Source: Archangium lipolyticum
GTDB lineage: Bacteria > Myxococcota > Myxococcia > Myxococcales > Myxococcaceae
Assembly: GCF_024623785.1 (NCBI RefSeq)
Contig: NZ_JANKBZ010000012.1
Location: 186,001 to 250,000 of the forward strand
Reading direction: 5' to 3'
Length of the DNA: 64,000 nt
Both the position numbers and the translations under genes were made by a program. A model generated the notes under the pieces. The model saw only the letters and a program-made list of their open reading frames with translations. It made no database searches and had not been told where the DNA came from. Below are positions 5,552 to 54,716 of the stretch, one piece after another. Each line of letters begins with the position of its first letter. Positions within the stretch are counted from its first letter, which is position 1.

Positions 5552-5824
5552 ATGCGAAGGACAATCATCGCAGGGTTGATGGCAGCGGGGATGCTGGCGG
5601 GTTGTGGAGGCACGTCCGACGAAGAGGTGTACATTTCGTGTGGCAACGGAACCTCGTGCACTGGTTCCGCTGAAAAGTGTGCGGAGCAGTGCGGCTCATC
5701 CGATGCGGACACGAAGCACGCTTCCTGGATCATCATTTATTGTTGCGACGGCTCCGAATGCCGTAGCCCCACCTCGGCTTCCGTCTGCTTCGAGTACTGC
5801 CAAACCCGCGACGGCGTTTGCTGA
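5552..5824 (+). CDS. Small Cys-rich lipoprotein
   Basis: A 90-residue protein with a lipoprotein signal: two Arg, a hydrophobic core and lipobox LAGC with the acylated Cys at 18. The mature part carries about eleven further cysteines over about 70 residues (for example SCGNGTSC, EKCAEQC and YCCDGSEC), so it should be disulfide-bonded at the cell surface or in the periplasm. The ATG at 5552 follows CAGGAGG; longer in-frame starts lack signal character. No family is recognised. Small Cys-rich lipoproteins of this kind are common in myxobacteria. Confidence 0.6.
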   Translation: MRRTIIAGLMAAGMLAGCGGTSDEEVYISCGNGTSCTGSAEKCAEQCGSSDADTKHASWIIIYCCDGSECRSPTSASVCFEYCQTRDGVC

Positions 5825-5941
5825 CGCCGGGGTAACACCTCTCGTTCTGTCATGCGGCGGCCCGCCCCGAACTTTCAGGGCGGGCCGCTGTGCTTCACCC
5901 GCAGCGGAAAACCCATTCGCGTCAGGGTAGGCTCGGCGGAC

Positions 5942-6565
5942 ATGCGCTCCTCCCTTCATATTCGGCCCTACCACCCGGATGACCGGGATGCTGTGTATGA
6001 CATCTGTGTGCGTACGGGTGCGGACGGGCAGGATGCTCGGGGTCTCTACCGGAGCGACGAGCTGCTGCCCGACGTCTACGCGGGCCCCTACCTCGAGCTC
6101 GAGCCGCAACTGGCGTTCGTGGTCGATGAGGGCGGACGCGCGGTCGGGTACGTGCTCGGCGCCGCCGACACGCCGGCCTTCGTGGAGGCCTGGCATGCCC
6201 GGTGGCTGCCGCGCGTGGCTGGCCGTCATCCCCGCCCGGTCGAGCCGGCCCTCTCCGCGGAAGAGCGGCTGATCGCCAGGCTGCACCATCCCGAGTGGAT
6301 GCTGGCGCCCGAGCTGGCCCCCCACCCGGCGCACCTGCATGTCAACCTGCTCCCCCATGTGCAGGGGGCCGGTTTCGGCCGGCGCCTCGTGGAGACATTC
6401 CTTGCCGCGGCGGCCGCCGTGGGCGCGCCCTCGCTCCATCTGGGCACGAGCAACGACAATACCCAGGCACTGCGTTTCTATGAGCGTCTGGGCTTCCAGA
6501 GGCTCACCGTGGCGGGAGACGTGGGTACCACGTATTTCCACTGCCCCACGGGGACGCGCGGTTGA
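5942..6565 (+). CDS. GNAT-family N-acetyltransferase
   Basis: A 207-residue single-domain acetyltransferase. It opens with the usual HIRPYHPDDRDAVYDIC helix-strand pattern. The acetyl-CoA pyrophosphate loop is seen as LLPHVQGAGFGRRLVETFL, followed by LGTSNDNTQALRFYERLGF, the standard GNAT C-terminal motif. An insert between the early strands (WHARWLPRVAG and the following 30 residues) resembles the bacterial relatives of the acetyltransferase-like domain of O-GlcNAcase. The start at 5942 is chosen because the upstream in-frame extension is Pro/Arg-rich with no family similarity. The substrate is unknown. Confidence 0.8.
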   Translation: MRSSLHIRPYHPDDRDAVYDICVRTGADGQDARGLYRSDELLPDVYAGPYLELEPQLAFVVDEGGRAVGYVLGAADTPAFVEAWHARWLPRVAGRHPRPVEPALSAEERLIARLHHPEWMLAPELAPHPAHLHVNLLPHVQGAGFGRRLVETFLAAAAAVGAPSLHLGTSNDNTQALRFYERLGFQRLTVAGDVGTTYFHCPTGTRG

Positions 6566-6737
6566 CGGGGTCCGAGCCCCCTCTCCCGTTGCCCTCCAAC
6601 AGGAAATCCACCGTATCCCGGACGCCGGGCAACTGGCCGCCCCCTGCATCCATTCGTGGCCTGGGAGCTTGTGACCGTGGGCGAACCTCTCCTAACCTGG
6701 GAGTTTGTCCGTCGATGGACTTGGAGAGGGGCTGAGC

Positions 6738-47833: not shown

Positions 47834-48508
47834 TCAGGGCTGCTCGGCCAGCAGCCGCAGGATGGCGATCTCCGTCTTCGCGTCCGGCACCTCGCCGCGC
47901 CGGCACATCGCCAGCAGCTCGCGGATGGGCCTCCACTGCAGGTGCGTGCCCTCCTCCAAGGGGGAGCCGTCCCCCTGGGGCACCCCGGGCTCCTTGCCCG
48001 TCACGTCCACCGCCGCCGGGAACACCTTCTCCGACAGGATGCCCGGCGCCAGGAAGAAGCCCGCCCCCAGCAGCTGGATTTCCTCCGGCTTCACCTCGAA
48101 CCCGGCTTCCTCGAGCACCTCCTCCGCCGCCCGGTGCCTCAGGCCCGCCTCGCCCTTGTCCTCCGGCTCCAGCAGCCCCGCGACGATCTCCTCCACCCGC
48201 AGGTACGAGGCCCCGTCCGGCACCGTCATCTCCTTGCCCCGCCGGAAGTAGGCAGCCGGCCTCAGGTTCATCCGCGTCAGCACCTCCAGCCCCGACGCAC
48301 CGCGGCGGTAGACCAGCACCGCCACCGCGTCCAACCTCGGCCGGTCCACCACGTCCACCCGGTACACCTTGGACGCCGTTCCGTCCGCGCGCCGGTTCTG
48401 ACACCTCAGCCGCCGCACTCGCAGAAAACCCTCGTCGCACTTCGCGGTCGACGTGAAATCCTCGATGATCTCGATATCGGTCACAGCAGAATGACTGCTT
48501 GGTCGCAT
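47834..48508 (-). CDS. Nudix hydrolase-like protein
   Basis: A 224-residue protein. After an N-terminal strand region (IIEDFTSTAKCDEGFLRVRR) it has the fold of ADP-sugar pyrophosphatases: RLDAVAVLVYRRGASGLEVL, then the Nudix box region GLRHRAAEEVLEEAGFEV and ILSEKVFPAAVDVTGKEPG. The box keeps the EEVLEEAG metal-binding core, but the usual Arg before it is Glu and the upstream Glu is displaced, so activity may be altered. The ATG at 48508 has AAGGGA upstream. It is divergent from the 5'-nucleotidase-like gene. Confidence 0.75.
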   Translation of the reverse strand: MRPSSHSAVTDIEIIEDFTSTAKCDEGFLRVRRLRCQNRRADGTASKVYRVDVVDRPRLDAVAVLVYRRGASGLEVLTRMNLRPAAYFRRGKEMTVPDGASYLRVEEIVAGLLEPEDKGEAGLRHRAAEEVLEEAGFEVKPEEIQLLGAGFFLAPGILSEKVFPAAVDVTGKEPGVPQGDGSPLEEGTHLQWRPIRELLAMCRRGEVPDAKTEIAILRLLAEQP

Positions 48509-48628
48509 GGCCGTTCCCTTAACGGAGAAGCCTGACGTAGGGGCGTTGCTTGCCCACCCAGGGATCATCTCGTACCTTGGGCCGTCGTCTACGCTCAATT
48601 TCTTCAATCCCCCCGGATCCGCCCTCGA

Positions 48629-51004
48629 ATGCGACGTCTCCCGCTCGGCCTCTTGTGCGCCCTGCTCTCGGCCTCCTGCATGCCCGTCATGGAGGGACAG
48701 GACATTGATCTCAGCGGACAGGAAGTCCGGCTCACCTTCCTCCATACGGCGGACATCCACTCACGGCTCGTCCCCTATGACTTCGCGCCGCTGAAGACGG
48801 ATACGGACCTGGGCCTCATCCCCGAGGCGGGCCCCTTCGGTGGGGCCACCCGGCTGGGCGCCATCCTCAAGCGCGAGCGCTCGCGCGCCGAGCGTGTGCT
48901 GCACCTGGACTCGGGGGACTGCTTCCAGGGCGCCCCCATCTTCAACGTCAACAGCGGCGAGGCCGAGTTCCGCTTCCTGTCCAGGATGCGGATGGACGCG
49001 GCCGTGATCGGCAACCACGAGTTCGACGCGGGCCTGGCCAACTTCGTCCAGAAGGCGCGCGACTTCGCCACCTTCCCGCTGATGGCGGCCAACTACTACT
49101 GGGACAGCCCGAAGGATCCCGGCAACGAGCAGGCCGCGCTCAACACCGAGCCCTACATCATCCGCAACGTGCAGGGCCTGAAGGTGGGCATCATCGGCAT
49201 GGCCAACATCTCCTCGCTCAACTCGCTGGTGGAGGGCGGCAACTCGCTGCAGGCCACCCCGCTGGAGCAGAACGAGGCGGCGCGTGCCTACGTGGAGATG
49301 CTGCGCCCGGTGGTGGATCTCATCGTGGTGGTCAGCCACCTGGGCCTCACCGAGGACCAGGATCTCATCCGCGGCTACGAGGCCTACTACGAGTACGAGC
49401 GCGCCCGGCCCTTCATCGAGCGGGACCACGATCAGTGGAAGGTGCTCGAGTGGGCGGACCCGGAGCTGGAGGGCAACCCCAAGGCGGTGGTGAAGGTGTT
49501 CATCCCCGGCGTGTCCGGCCTGGACGTCATCCTGGGCGGCCACCTGCACGTGGTGCTCAACCCGCCGCAGGAGCTCACGGATCCCAGCGGCCGCAAGGTG
49601 GTGGTGGTGCACTCGGGCGCCTTCGCCAAGTACGTGGGGCGCGCGGACCTGGTGGTGAAGGTCCCCAAGGCCGAGGAGCGCACGCCGGATGGCGCCGAGG
49701 TGAGCAGCCACTCCTACCGCGCCTTCCCGCTGGACGGCCTGTGGTGCAACGAGCCCATGCGCGCCTGGTACATCGACAACTTCTGGAACCCCGGAGAGTT
49801 CATCAACGCCGAGGGCGTGCGCGAGGCCATCGCGGAGTGCCAGCAGCAGGAAGACCGGGAGACGACGGACCTGCTCCAGCCCTACCTGCTGGGCATGGAC
49901 TTCAACCTCCAGCTCACCTCCATCTTCTCCTACGCGCCGACCGACGTGGCCCGCCGCAACACCTCCTCGGGCGGTGACTCGCCGCTGGGCAACATCACCG
50001 CGGACTCCATGCGCAAGCGCCGCGCGGTGGAGGCGGAGATGGCCCTCACCAACTCGCTGGGCATCCGCGACAACCTCTACGCGGGCGTGGTGACCCAGGA
50101 GTCCATGTTCAACGTGTTCCCGTTCGAGAACACCATCAACATCATGTACCTGTCGGGCACGGAGATTCAGGAGATGTTCGACTTCGTGGCCGAACGCTCC
50201 GCCAGCCGCGGCTGCGTCAGCCAGGCGCAGATCTCCGGCGCGCGTTTCACCATGGACTGCGCCCAGGTGCAGCTCAACGACCTGCGCATTCCGTGCGACC
50301 CCGCGAAGAACGCCACGGACTGCCCCCAGGAGAACCGCGAGAACCACGCCCCCTGGCAGTGCATCGCGGACCAGGACGGCGAGCGCTGCTACGCCCACCC
50401 CGCCACGGACATCTCCATCAACGGCAGCCCCATCAACCCCAACGGCATGTACCGCGTGGCGGTGAACGACTACATCGCCAAGGGGGGCTCGGGCTTCAAC
50501 GTCCTCAAACGCAACACCACGCGCCAGGAGACGGGCATCTCCCTGCGCGACTCGCTCATCGGCTACATGCAGAACTTCTGCACCTGCGATGACATCAACG
50601 CGGGCCGCGAGACGTCCAAGACGGGCGAGCGCTGCGGCACGCTCATCAAGGGCCAGTGGGTGGTGGATGACAAGACGCGCAACTTCTGCGTCAAGGCCCA
50701 GGAGTTCGAGGACGCGCTGGCGCGCACGGTGGGTGACTGCACGTGCCGCCAGTTGCTGAACATCCCCCCCGAGGAAGCCGCCGCGCGCTGCCACGTGGAG
50801 AACCTGGATGCGGAGACGATCCAGAGCACGTGCAACGTGCCCACGGGCCCGTACACCGGACGCTGCAGCTGCCGCGACGCGCTGTCGGGTGCCCAGGAGT
50901 GTGGTTCGGTCACCCGGCAGCTCGAGACCTTCTGTGAGAACCCAACCGAGATGCCCATCGCCACCGCCATCGAGGATGGCCGTATCGGACGGAGGGTGAA
51001 GTGA
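48629..51004 (+). CDS. 5'-nucleotidase/UshA-like metallophosphatase lipoprotein
   Basis: A 791-residue lipoprotein (lipobox LSASC, Cys17). The metallophosphatase domain has FLHTADIHSRLVPYDF, HLDSGDCFQG, VIGNHEFDAG and LGGHLHVV, the metal and nucleophile set of the 5'-nucleotidase family. The C-terminal nucleotidase domain is seen in SSGGDSPLGNITADSMRKR and NGSPINPNGMYRVAVNDYIA, the latter lining the nucleoside site. About 150 extra C-terminal residues carry many Cys in CxC pairs (CTCDD, DCTCRQL, RCSCRDA), an unusual addition that is probably disulfide-rich. It overlaps the next gene by one base. Confidence 0.85.
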   Translation: MRRLPLGLLCALLSASCMPVMEGQDIDLSGQEVRLTFLHTADIHSRLVPYDFAPLKTDTDLGLIPEAGPFGGATRLGAILKRERSRAERVLHLDSGDCFQGAPIFNVNSGEAEFRFLSRMRMDAAVIGNHEFDAGLANFVQKARDFATFPLMAANYYWDSPKDPGNEQAALNTEPYIIRNVQGLKVGIIGMANISSLNSLVEGGNSLQATPLEQNEAARAYVEMLRPVVDLIVVVSHLGLTEDQDLIRGYEAYYEYERARPFIERDHDQWKVLEWADPELEGNPKAVVKVFIPGVSGLDVILGGHLHVVLNPPQELTDPSGRKVVVVHSGAFAKYVGRADLVVKVPKAEERTPDGAEVSSHSYRAFPLDGLWCNEPMRAWYIDNFWNPGEFINAEGVREAIAECQQQEDRETTDLLQPYLLGMDFNLQLTSIFSYAPTDVARRNTSSGGDSPLGNITADSMRKRRAVEAEMALTNSLGIRDNLYAGVVTQESMFNVFPFENTINIMYLSGTEIQEMFDFVAERSASRGCVSQAQISGARFTMDCAQVQLNDLRIPCDPAKNATDCPQENRENHAPWQCIADQDGERCYAHPATDISINGSPINPNGMYRVAVNDYIAKGGSGFNVLKRNTTRQETGISLRDSLIGYMQNFCTCDDINAGRETSKTGERCGTLIKGQWVVDDKTRNFCVKAQEFEDALARTVGDCTCRQLLNIPPEEAAARCHVENLDAETIQSTCNVPTGPYTGRCSCRDALSGAQECGSVTRQLETFCENPTEMPIATAIEDGRIGRRVK

Positions 51005-53034
51005 TGAAGAAGCGTTTCCTGCTCCTCGCGGCGAGCGCCGCCGCCGCGTCCGGCTGCTACGACGTGGAGTCTCCCACTCCGCCGGGGATCGGCTCGTTCC
51101 GGGTGGTGGTGCAGAGCGTCACCGCGGTGACCCCCAGCGGCGGCACCCTGCCGCTCGACGTGGTCCCCGCCTGCATCTCCCGCTTCGGCGGCACCAGGAC
51201 GGAGCACGTGCCCCTCGAGGCGCGCGGCAAGGAGGACTGCCGCTACGTCATCCCCCGGGGCCCGGTGGAGATGCTGGTGGACGTCACCGCCCTGGACAAG
51301 GCCGGCAAGCCGCTCGACTTCAACGGGCCGGTGAGCTTCAAGGTGGTGCCGGGCGATCTCTCCGGCGACGACTACAGCTACTACTGGATGACGCTGTCGC
51401 GCGGCCGTGGCCTCGGGAAGATGCGCGCCCAGCACATCTACGGCGACGTGCGCGTCTGGGCCATGGACGAGCCCGTGAAGCTCAACTACGCCAACGGCGC
51501 CATCAAGGGTGACCAGACGAAGCTCCCCAAGGAGCCCGCGTCGCGCACCTACGCCGCCGGCGCCTCCTCGCCCCTGCTGTTCGCCGAGCCCACGCTGGCC
51601 TCCGTCCAGACGCCGCAGCTCTACGACAACACCACCTCGCCCTTCGTGACGAAGTTCGTCACCGTGGGCCGGGCCCCAGAGTCCGGCTCCATCCTGTACC
51701 AGAACTGCCCCGCCGTGGACCTGGACAAGGACGGCAAGCCGGATCCGCAGCCGCCCGTCACCCTGCTGGTGACGGGGACGGATCCCTCGGGCTTCTTCGT
51801 CACGGACATCACCGCCTGCCGCGTCCCCGAGGACGTCAGCGCGGCCGCGCAGGTGGCCGTCCCCGAGCCCAGCGGCTACCTGCCCGGCAGCTACGCCTCG
51901 ATGTTCGTCTACAACTACAGCTACCCCGAGGGGCTCGACCCGGGGGATCTGCTGTGGACGCTCTCCGGCTCCATCCAGGAGTTCACCTCCACCACGCAGC
52001 TCACCTTCCCCTCGTGGACGGTGCGCGAGCACGTGCGCCAGCTGCCGCTCGACCAGTGGGACAAGTACCTGAAGCTCAACCCGCCGGTGGAGATCAACCT
52101 GCGCCACTGCGGGCTGAAGAACGAGCTGGCGTACACCAACGTCGACGGGCTCTGCGGCTACTACACGAGCAACCTGAAGATGGAGAGCCTGGAGTCGGGG
52201 CTGGTGAAGGTGCGCCACGTGCGCTTCCCGCAGGTCTTCAAGGACTGCGACTTCAACGGCGATGGCGAGGTCCCCTTCTTCTGCAGCAAACGGGGCGCGT
52301 GGAGCTTCTGCGGCGACGTGGAGCCCGAGGACATGGACGAGATCCAGTGCAACATCGACTGCACCATCGGCACCGGCGCCTACCAGCGCACCGTCTGCGC
52401 CGAGCGCAGCCAGCACACCGGCTACGGCCAGTTCGTGGTGGAGATGACGGGCCCGGGTCCGTACGCGGCCGGCCTGGATGACTCGCTGCCCCTGCGCGGG
52501 CAGGAGGTCGTCCTCTCCAACACCCAGTCCAGGCCCATCGCCAAGGGCTACCCCGAGGGCGAGCCGATCACCGTCTGGTGCGACCTCGACACGTACGTGC
52601 GTTTCGGCCCCAGCACCGCCACCACCGCCACCGACAAGGACACGCTGCTGCCGGCGAAGACGCGGCGGGACGTCACCGTGCGCGCCGGCGAGGGCTACGT
52701 GGCCTTCCTGGCCAAGGAGGCCCCGTCCACTCCTCCTCCGGGGTCCGCGCCGCCCAGGTGCTTCGTGGGCAGCAGCACGCGCACGCGTCTGATGCTCGTC
52801 ACCCAGGACGCGGTGCCGGACCTGAAGGTGGACTGCGACGAGAACGACGCGGACGCGGACAGCGCCCAGCAGTGCCGCTTCCTGCGCGGAGCCACCTATG
52901 ACGTGGTGGGCCACCTGCGCCAGGTCCAGCCGGCCCGGCCGCGCTGGATGGTGATGCCGCGCGACGCGGACGACCTGTGCTGCCATCCGGGTGAGGGCAT
53001 GGAGTGCCCGCGCCCGCTGAAGTCTTGTGAGTGA
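51004..53034 (+). CDS. Large lipoprotein with Asp-rich calcium-binding-like motifs
   Basis: A 676-residue lipoprotein with lipobox AASGC (Cys18). The body is beta-rich (PGIGSFRVVVQSVTAVTPSG and many similar strands) and Cys-containing. Two stretches, DLDKDGKPD near 240 and DCDFNGDGE near 415, look like EF-hand or dockerin-type calcium loops, and DCDENDADAD follows near the end. The start codon ATG at 51004 overlaps the TGA of the nucleotidase gene, and GGAGG lies eight bases upstream of the ATG. With the barrel encoded next it may form a surface complex. No family name can be given. Confidence 0.7.
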   Translation: MKKRFLLLAASAAAASGCYDVESPTPPGIGSFRVVVQSVTAVTPSGGTLPLDVVPACISRFGGTRTEHVPLEARGKEDCRYVIPRGPVEMLVDVTALDKAGKPLDFNGPVSFKVVPGDLSGDDYSYYWMTLSRGRGLGKMRAQHIYGDVRVWAMDEPVKLNYANGAIKGDQTKLPKEPASRTYAAGASSPLLFAEPTLASVQTPQLYDNTTSPFVTKFVTVGRAPESGSILYQNCPAVDLDKDGKPDPQPPVTLLVTGTDPSGFFVTDITACRVPEDVSAAAQVAVPEPSGYLPGSYASMFVYNYSYPEGLDPGDLLWTLSGSIQEFTSTTQLTFPSWTVREHVRQLPLDQWDKYLKLNPPVEINLRHCGLKNELAYTNVDGLCGYYTSNLKMESLESGLVKVRHVRFPQVFKDCDFNGDGEVPFFCSKRGAWSFCGDVEPEDMDEIQCNIDCTIGTGAYQRTVCAERSQHTGYGQFVVEMTGPGPYAAGLDDSLPLRGQEVVLSNTQSRPIAKGYPEGEPITVWCDLDTYVRFGPSTATTATDKDTLLPAKTRRDVTVRAGEGYVAFLAKEAPSTPPPGSAPPRCFVGSSTRTRLMLVTQDAVPDLKVDCDENDADADSAQQCRFLRGATYDVVGHLRQVQPARPRWMVMPRDADDLCCHPGEGMECPRPLKSCE

Positions 53035-53118
53035 AGTAGTGCCATGACGAAGTGAAGCGCCCCGTTCCCAGCGGGGCGCAGGGAGGGGCGGCACCCCCCG
53101 CCGCCCCTTGGAGGGACT

Positions 53119-54657
53119 TTGAAGAAGACGCTGCGCACGCTGGCCCTGACCGGGCTGATGACCCTCTCCATGCCCGCATGGGCTGGAGACTTCGTCGACA
53201 CCCGTCTGTCGTTCGCCTTCGCGGACGACAACGTATTCGCCAACGCGGGCGAGACGACGCCCAACAGCCCCACGGCCCGCTTCGGCGCGGGCATCCAGAA
53301 CACCCAGTTCTACGACAACTTCAACACCCGGTTCTCCGGCTTCGAGACGCTGTCCAACATCGTCCTCTACAAGAAGATGCCGGCGTTCTTCGAGGGCCTC
53401 ACCACCGAGGCGGCCCTCACGGTGCTGTTGCTGGAGCGGCCCTCGGGCGGAATCGACCTGAGGGACAACTCCAGCTACATCCGCCTCAACTACCGGCCGC
53501 CGGGCTGGGGCGAGAACGAGGGCCTGTCCCTCACCGGCTTCCCCGTGTCCGCGGACCGCTTCCGGCTGGGCTATGCCTACCGCATCTCCTGGGGCGGCAG
53601 CGGCATCTTCACCACCCGCGCCACCGCGGCGGGCGTGCCGGGCGCCAAGCTGCAGCTCACCCGCGACAAGTGGTACGCCTTCGCGGGCGCCAAGACGGCG
53701 CTGGTGCTCAACGATCTCATCAAGGAGCAGGAGACGCTCTACGGCTTCATGGCCGGCGCCGGATGGGATCCCTTCGAGACGCTGCGCGTGGAGGCCGGTG
53801 GCGGCTACTTCCAGAAGGGCATCGTCCCGGGCCTGGCCGCGCTGGGCGTGGAGGCGCCGGTGAACTCGGCGGGCGTGTCCGCGCAGATCGTCCACCACGT
53901 GGGCGTGCCGGTGGGCACCAGCGTGGACTTCCGGCTGTACCGGAACGATCCGGACGTCTACCAGCGCTTCTTCGCCCCGGAGCAGTACCCGGGTGGGCTC
54001 TCGTACTCGGTGTCCCTCGAGGGCAGCTACCTGGTGCAGACGCTGTCGGATCCGGACGTGTTCGGCCGCACGGTGCCGCAGGAGGCCACCGCGGTGGCGC
54101 TGCAGGCGCGCGCCAAGTGGAACTACTGGCGCTTCCACGTGCTGGGCCTGTACCGCGACCTGTCCTTCATCCAGTTCGAGGTGCCCGGCCTGCCGCCCTT
54201 CACCGACTTCCCGAACGGCACGGAGCTCAAGCCGGAGATGTTCATCGCCGCGGGCGCGGACTTCCACATCCCCGCGCTGCACTTCACCCCGGGCTTCATC
54301 CTGGGCGTGCAGCAGCCGGCGACGTTCCGCAGCCCCGAGCCGCTCTTCGGCGGCAACAACCCGCCCCCGGGCCTCACGGGCACGCGCACCGTGGTGGTGC
54401 GTGACGTCAACGTGCTGAGCATCCTCCCCACCACGTGCGGCAGCGACAACAGCACCTGCGAGGCCGAGCCCATCATCTCCGCCAAGGGCACCTTCCGGTG
54501 GGACCTGTCGGAGATCGTCTCCGCGGTGGGCGAGGTCTATTACACCTACGACGCCAACCGGACGACCTTCCGGGACGACGTCTTCGGCGTGGCGCAGCCC
54601 AGCTTCGAGAAGCCCCACGCGCTGGGCTTCAACATGCTGCTGCAGGCGCGCTTCTAG
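53119..54657 (+). CDS. Predicted outer-membrane beta-barrel protein
   Basis: A 512-residue protein. A TTG start at 53119 follows GGAGGGACT at five bases; the signal peptide (LALTGLMTLSMPAWA) is cleaved near residue 22. The remainder is a series of short amphipathic strands ending in aromatic residues, such as VRLRY-like patterns SYIRLNYRPPG, DFRLYRNDP and YSVSLEGSYLVQ, and finishes with LGFNMLLQARF, a C-terminal Phe as in outer-membrane barrels. It lies 84 bases after the large lipoprotein gene and ends before a strong terminator, closing the three-gene envelope operon. Possibly a porin or a surface export channel. Confidence 0.7.
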   Translation: MKKTLRTLALTGLMTLSMPAWAGDFVDTRLSFAFADDNVFANAGETTPNSPTARFGAGIQNTQFYDNFNTRFSGFETLSNIVLYKKMPAFFEGLTTEAALTVLLLERPSGGIDLRDNSSYIRLNYRPPGWGENEGLSLTGFPVSADRFRLGYAYRISWGGSGIFTTRATAAGVPGAKLQLTRDKWYAFAGAKTALVLNDLIKEQETLYGFMAGAGWDPFETLRVEAGGGYFQKGIVPGLAALGVEAPVNSAGVSAQIVHHVGVPVGTSVDFRLYRNDPDVYQRFFAPEQYPGGLSYSVSLEGSYLVQTLSDPDVFGRTVPQEATAVALQARAKWNYWRFHVLGLYRDLSFIQFEVPGLPPFTDFPNGTELKPEMFIAAGADFHIPALHFTPGFILGVQQPATFRSPEPLFGGNNPPPGLTGTRTVVVRDVNVLSILPTTCGSDNSTCEAEPIISAKGTFRWDLSEIVSAVGEVYYTYDANRTTFRDDVFGVAQPSFEKPHALGFNMLLQARF

Positions 54658-54684
54658 GCGGCCCGCGTCGAGCCGCTCCACCGA

Positions 54685-54716
54685 GGCCTCGGGTTCCGCG
54701 GAACCCGGGGCCTTTT
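54685..54716 (+). terminator. Rho-independent terminator of the envelope operon
   Basis: GGCCTCGGGTTCC pairs with GGAACCCGGGGCC around a GC loop (one mismatch), followed by TTTT. It lies 28 bases after the barrel gene stop. Confidence 0.85.

Follow-up and report, generated by a model that had tools for sequence, protein, structure and literature searches.

Three adjacent genes on the forward strand of a 64,000-nucleotide stretch of the Archangium lipolyticum genome (12.6 Mb; contig NZ_JANKBZ010000012.1, positions 186,001 to 250,000, hereafter the window) make up a set, A-B-C, which we read, with confidence barely above even, as a unit of the Myxococcota for the capture, dephosphorylation and uptake of nucleic acid at the outer membrane. 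Gene A (48629..51004) encodes a 5'-nucleotidase-family lipoprotein of 791 amino acids (aa) with the lipobox LSASC (Cys17), gene B (51004..53034) a 676-aa lipoprotein with the lipobox ASGC and an OB-fold core of the ExeM/NucH type, and gene C (53119..54657) a putative outer-membrane beta-barrel of 512 aa with a conserved TTG start and the C-terminal residues QARF; both lipoboxes were recognized by eye, and the three co-directional open reading frames begin and end where a preliminary description of the window had placed them. Secreted nucleases would make DNA or RNA fragments, possibly from prey, that the OB-fold lipoprotein B would hold at the cell surface; A, a disulphide-rich lipoprotein exposed beside B and perhaps in a complex with it, would strip the 5'-phosphate from the released nucleotides; and C, a putative barrel lacking a TonB plug, would pass nucleosides and/or phosphate. 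Of the deep-lineage loci, defined here as the 22 A-bearing loci outside the window's taxonomic order, about half would encode the nuclease-side partner (a multi-OB lipoprotein, once Endonuclease I) just upstream. The link to nucleic acid is independently supported by the ExeM-type OB-fold of B and by nuclease-type neighbours in 12 of those 22 loci.

The distribution of the genes was analyzed in two genome sets, one of 59 genomes (the host's own and relatives) and one of 195 genomes of the phylum Myxococcota. Among the 59 genomes, B was matched in 36 and C in 38, whereas A-type nucleotidases occurred in 55, their high-scoring matches mainly adjoining B and C. Across the phylum (E-values up to 1e-6), C was found in 119 genomes and B in 118, with both in 116 and neither in 74 when the lists were compared by eye; C was present without B in three genomes (G037, G069, G190) and B without C in two (G165, G166), although a later profile search revealed that G037 and G069 have a weaker B-like gene after all. 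Profiles for A, B and C were then run on all open frames of 74 loci, 51 of which carry A-B-C in that order on one strand, so that the co-occurrence across myxobacteria named as a check in the preliminary description was borne out. The incomplete loci comprise A-B (8), B-C (4), C alone (8), A alone (1), B alone (1) and L050, which appears as "BA" owing to overlapping open frames but is A-B truncated at the end of a contig. A contig edge ends several of them; A-B without C nearby is found in L167-L169 and L171-L173, and in genome G047 C and A-B lie on separate contigs (L068, L069). The 74 loci are not independent, coming as they do from related genomes and in part from the same one: L050/L051, L060/L061, L068/L069 and others are contig pairs from single genomes, and L032 and L051 seem to be stretches of one contig, with the same B fragment. 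The conserved gene order across the phylum, together with a conserved promoter-like block upstream of A, places the association above chance, and on these comparisons the A-B-C gene set is real and old. No homologues of B or C were detected on plasmids, nor of C in phages (E 0.01).

The layout of the genes fits a single operon. The preliminary description had them bound together by overlapping starts and one terminator; A and B do overlap, by 1 nucleotide with the B start at ATG 51004 or by 4 with an alternative GTG start at 51001, but B and C are 84 nucleotides apart. This gap contains two GC-rich hairpins without a T run (53057..53109, forward strand; z -2.55 for the 84-nucleotide gap), and an intrinsic-terminator-like hairpin with a short T run follows C (54683..54714, forward strand; z -3.01). 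As the number of terminator-like sites in the region is close to chance (3 observed, 2.6 expected), that hairpin is telling by its place only. The 120-nucleotide gap upstream of A contains the promoter-like block TTGCCC-N17-TACCTT (48550..48578, forward strand), identified by alignment and showing strong conservation in a comparison of the window with 13 relatives; a sigma-70 promoter scan of the region gave no site, the block lying under the scan threshold. The single operon is thus argued for by the A/B overlap, the B-C gap without a T run, the hairpin after C and the promoter-like block. Control by a Pho box upstream of A, raised as a check in the preliminary description, was not supported: the window holds 8 Pho-box-like matches versus 13.1 expected, for the Escherichia coli consensus, which may not fit myxobacteria, and the nearest match (2 mismatches, 48481-48497) lies inside the divergent gene. 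An Rfam scan for RNA elements gave no match at the gathering threshold. In 13 of 14 sequences, the window's among them, C has a TTG start with a GGAGGG-like ribosome site ahead of it; this conserved start is perhaps a means of setting the level of C.

For the protein comparisons, homologues were aligned in sets of 37 rows for A, 36 for B and 39 for C, after omission of L067, L073, L083 and L084 (A), of L032, L050 and L051 (B), and of L032 and the paralogues L074-L082 (C). By Nei-Gojobori estimates of the ratio of nonsynonymous to synonymous substitution rates (dN/dS), B (0.51-0.86) evolves faster than A and C (0.22-0.39), values from very GC-rich codons of which only this ranking should be used.

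The OB-fold region of B spans approximately residues 246-420 (VTGTDPSGFFVTD ... FVYNYSYPEGLDPGDLLWTLSGSIQEFTSTTQ ... LESLESGLVKVRHV; 51739..52263, forward strand) and was delimited by profile comparison. Neither the window's B (no Pfam family above cut-off) nor ten distant B proteins (no match) were assigned by Pfam scans, and solved relatives appeared by profile at chance level only (E 0.72 and 0.94; 0.58 for the OB region). Nine OB repeats were cut from ten proteins encoded upstream of A in deep lineages, picked by a short motif resembling that of B. An hhalign comparison of the B core with these repeats gave 95.8%, rising to 97.0% (P 8.5e-11) when two ExeM segments were added. The profile of repeats plus ExeM finds 25 of the 36 B proteins at E<0.01 and, once the limit is relaxed to E<1, every one of the 36, whereas none of 1080 shuffled sequences and no A or C protein is hit at that limit; when set against the A and C families in hhalign it gives 0.2% and 0.1%, respectively. 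On these profile comparisons the B core is related to the OB-folds of the ExeM/NucH extracellular nucleases, and B may bind nucleic acid; in ExeM, the OB region is reported to be crucial to activity (PMC6085458). No catalytic endonuclease/exonuclease/phosphatase domain was found in B and 35 homologues with Pfam, nor in the window's B with NCBIfam. When 39 relatives were searched for further proteins carrying the OB-fold of B, nothing came up but B or B-like genes lying between A and C.

The preliminary description had taken B for a calcium-motif lipoprotein with EF-hand/dockerin-like Asp loops. The lipobox stands, but the calcium motif is weak: only the middle one of three loops, DFNGDG (residues 416-421; 52249..52266, forward strand), is widely kept in the alignment, 27 of the 36 homologues having the pattern D-x-[DNST]-x-[DNST]-G there, and at position 12 of this loop 27 of the 36 have Cys and none has Asp or Glu. 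The loop DLDKDGKPD (residues 239-247) has counterparts in six members of the genus only, the third is variable, and two EF-hand models match one of the 36 proteins each (E 0.024 and 0.045). An EF-hand or dockerin protein was rejected on these grounds. In two loci (L054:6615-9815, L056:6000-9209) the B homologues reach about 1070 aa and carry an RCC1-type propeller insert.

For 19 of the 22 deep-lineage loci the genes upstream of A were run against one or more libraries; the other three (L162, L167, L173) have no same-strand neighbour there. A nuclease-type gene was found in 12: in 11 loci (L145, L146, L147, L148, L150, L151, L152, L155, L164, L166, L174) an ExeM/NucH-type OB protein matching NF033681 with E-values from 1e-07 to 2e-31, all under the 300-bit whole-protein cut-off, and in L154 an Endonuclease I gene before A (PF04231, E 1.3e-31). 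Lamin-tail matches occur in four upstream proteins (L146, L147, L150 and L151, the last just under cut-off) and thrombospondin-3 matches in three. Other upstream genes encode GspN (L163), a YfcE-type phosphodiesterase directly before A (L171:9552-10037 and L172:9074-9589, both reverse strand) or a cyclic-nucleotide-binding protein (L169), and those of L153, L165 and L168 gave no match in the library scans. A full ExeM/NucH nuclease (586 bits) is encoded at another site of the window's genome.

The assignment of A as a nucleotidase lipoprotein held: it matches Metallophos with 31.1 bits (Pfam cut-off 21.5) and 5_nucleotid_C with 104.6 bits (cut-off 23.6), and its nearest solved relatives are the 5'-nucleotidases 2z1a and 3ivd. 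The metallophosphoesterase domain (residues 36-308; 48734..49552, forward strand) contains the motifs DIHS, GDCFQG, GNHEFD, SHLG and GGHLH, whose counterparts DxH, GDxxxG, GNHE, SH and GGHxH we take to have metal-site roles, and the residues D42, H44, D97, N129, H130, H237, H305 and H307 occur without exception in the 37 rows. In the 5_nucleotid_C substrate-binding domain (residues 442-628; 49952..50512, forward strand; motifs NSLGIR, FPFENT and NDYIAKGGSGF), the pocket residues N475, R480 and F499 are likewise kept in every row. In the salvage reading, A would hydrolyse nucleoside 5'-monophosphates.

At one position of this pocket A departs from its relatives. Ser621 (codon 50489..50491, forward strand) takes the place of the Asp of the GGDG motif in UshA, 2z1a and 3ivd, and Ser is found in all 59 members compared, 37 aligned and 22 distant; the motif reads GGSGF in 35 of the 37 aligned homologues and GGSGY in L070 and L071. 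GGSGF was not matched in any of ten A paralogues; GGDGF and GGGGF occur in one each, and the other eight matched no GGxGF pattern. We take Asp506 of human CD73 to be the Asp of this motif. In CD73, Asp506 is reported to bond to the two hydroxyls of the ribose, the enzyme has a preference for ribonucleotides, and deoxy compounds bind about equally well (PMC8677862). Because of this last observation the effect of the Asp loss in A is uncertain; we infer that the Ser may ease the use of deoxynucleotides. The operon unites a fast-evolving OB-fold lipoprotein, a nucleotidase and a barrel, and yields a prediction, deoxyribose tolerance, that turns on a single residue.

The extra Cys-rich C-terminus of about 150 residues noticed earlier in A was recovered as well. 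It holds 12 Cys arranged in three four-Cys modules of the pattern CxC...C...C (residues 651-687, 704-735 and 746-769; 50579..50935, forward strand). Counted by pattern, there are three modules in 25 of the 37 homologues, four in two (L040, L043) and fewer in ten, and eight Cys of the A core are invariant across the 37 rows. The protein ends in EDGRIGRRVK; EDGRIxRRVK or a similar ending is present in most of the 37 rows and not in all distant members.

C, described earlier as resembling an outer-membrane barrel, is probably one. Its N-terminus looks by eye like a signal peptide, past which there is no clear hydrophobic helix (for the best window of 19 residues, a median of 1.31 and a maximum of 1.76 among 39 homologues), and its last residue is aromatic (F or Y) in 38 of 39. 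The Phage_OMP barrel model matches 11 of the 39 (best E 5.4e-06) and one of ten distant or paralogous C proteins (E 0.0095). A probable counterpart in Myxococcus xanthus is listed as a predicted barrel (see below), but the strand count adds little. Profile searches found no solved relative of C, and Pfam scans gave no plug, TonB-dependent receptor domain, nucleoside-channel or export-barrel match.

In M. xanthus, MXAN_2661, MXAN_2660 and MXAN_2659 are probably A, B and C; these tags fit the gene order, which runs C-B-A along complete genome G027 and C-B along G153. In a liquid chromatography-tandem mass spectrometry (LC-MS/MS) study of M. xanthus outer membranes, MXAN2659 is a hypothetical protein and predicted barrel with 17 peptides and MXAN2660 a putative lipoprotein with 6 (PMC3222651). 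MXAN_2661 is named among predation-induced hydrolases and reported in vesicles (PMC9548883). If the locus tags are correct, the operon would provide a function for two unassigned M. xanthus outer-membrane proteins. The earlier proposal that the set frees phosphate or nucleosides from the nucleic acids of prey is, then, supported for nucleic acid by the OB-fold of B and the 12 nuclease-type neighbours, but for prey the sole hint is the induction of MXAN_2661 during predation, and this protein is A by inference. Nucleic acid is a large share of a lysed bacterium, and we found no account of its uptake by myxobacteria at the outer membrane, for which the operon supplies candidates in a predator amenable to genetics. 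Our literature search, to which subscription papers were mostly closed, returned no paper on an A-B-C operon, and none is named in the accessible portions of PMC2887360, PMC4158809, PMC5857379, PMC8475336 and PMC11495043; the set itself seems undescribed. Its parts are of known kinds, and the novelty lies in their phylum-wide association and in the altered pocket for ribose.

Several observations weigh against nucleic-acid salvage by A-B-C. ExeM alone gives 49.6% with B in hhalign, the neighbour-repeat profile without ExeM finds 5 of 36 B proteins at E<0.01 (26 at E<1), and the neighbour repeats were chosen through a short motif similar to B's own. The upstream gene is not nuclease-like in seven of the 22 deep-lineage loci, which lowers our confidence in the salvage reading, and three have no same-strand one; in L145 the OB gene is the second upstream, a carboxypeptidase gene intervening before A. 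C is by itself in 8 of the 74 loci, of which some are small contigs; next to paralogous or solitary C genes the neighbours are unrelated in kind (ten proteins scanned); and the relatedness of the genomes inflates every co-occurrence count. A crude amphipathic-strand count of C is mildly raised (15 versus 10.9, standard deviation 2.6, in shuffled columns), and structure predictions from three-sequence alignments reached mean pLDDT (predicted local distance difference test) values of 25.0 and 36.6; with model confidence this low, the barrel of C and the OB-fold of B rest on sequence. In M. xanthus, MXAN_2659-2661 were equated with C-B-A by order and description only, and two further 5'-nucleotidases, MXAN2470 and MXAN5361, are listed with them.

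The set might instead scavenge nucleotide cofactors or sugars (uridine diphosphate sugars, nicotinamide adenine dinucleotide, dinucleoside polyphosphates) in the periplasm or at the surface, with A acting like UshA or NadN, B as a scaffold and no polymer involved. The best NCBIfam match of A is indeed UshA (137.3 bits), NadN is matched too (70.3 bits), a divergent Nudix-like gene lies beside the operon in the window's family, and a YfcE-type phosphodiesterase gene precedes A in two deep-lineage loci. The UshA score, however, is far under the 600-bit equivalog cut-off of NF007109, and the ExeM-type OB-fold of B and the OB, lamin-tail and Endonuclease I genes upstream indicate polymers, so that we consider cofactor scavenging rather unlikely. 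Another idea is that C is an assembly or export factor taking A and B to the surface, rather than a product channel, A-B being the functional unit. This would suit the 8 of 74 loci that have A-B without C, and the tendency of C, in most relatives, to resemble its window counterpart somewhat more closely than A or B do theirs; it appears improbable to us given that Pfam scans of C reveal no known export barrel and that the unrelated neighbours of C paralogues do not suggest a dedicated exporter of A and B.

The set could also handle the DNA of the cell's own matrix, B anchoring extracellular DNA to the outer membrane and A and C recycling it, in the service of matrix or adhesion and not of feeding. 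Some deep-lineage upstream genes have lamin-tail domains and thrombospondin-3 repeats and match the cohesion protein model MtsC in part, and the faster evolution of B would be in keeping with such a role; but the MtsC matches are under cut-off, their best stretches span the repeat region only, and adhesion needs no phosphatase, for which reasons we give this possibility little credence. There is also a bolder form of the salvage reading, in which a phylum-wide complex captures DNA through B, has A re-tuned to deoxynucleotides by the Asp-to-Ser change and uses C as a dedicated barrel, amounting to SusCD-like digestion and import of DNA by predators. This version we regard as doubtful.

Among known systems, Bacillus subtilis YhcR is a nuclease of the cell surface that has OB-folds as well as a 5'-nucleotidase domain. 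Like YhcR, A-B-C would pair OB-fold nucleic-acid-binding domains with a metallophosphoesterase 5'-nucleotidase on the cell surface, whereas it splits the functions over separate lipoproteins and a barrel in a Gram-negative outer membrane, and a nuclease domain was not found in A or B. With UshA, CD73 and NadN, A shares, by sequence, two domains, the metal-site residues and the pocket motifs NxxG(I/L)R and FPF; it differs from them in being a lipoprotein with a Cys-module tail and in the replacement of the GGDG Asp by Ser in 59 of 59 members. If salvage is the right reading, dephosphorylation and passage of nucleosides over the outer membrane would be combined as in E. coli with the nucleoside channel Tsx and periplasmic UshA; C, with 512 aa, is larger than Tsx and has no Pfam nucleoside-channel match. 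The E. coli genes ushA and tsx are not known to share an operon. The B core and the upstream-gene repeats are related to the OB region of ExeM/NucH proteins (Shewanella ExeM, PMC6085458) and some upstream genes share their lamin-tail domain, but unlike these nucleases B has no exonuclease-endonuclease-phosphatase domain or any recognisable catalytic domain.

Divergent from the operon lies a gene for a Nudix-like hydrolase (47834..48508, reverse strand), the assignment of which is weak, as Pfam NUDIX is matched at E 0.48 and the best solved structure at E 0.005. Of 54 loci, 28 have such a gene near A, every one from the window's family or an Archangium metagenome-assembled genome. In L162 a lipoprotein-like gene of 368 aa without a Pfam match is placed between B and C (5623-6726, reverse strand). 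Finally, an open frame of 1372 codons runs antisense to B and C (50563-54681, reverse strand) and is probably a by-product of GC-rich codons.

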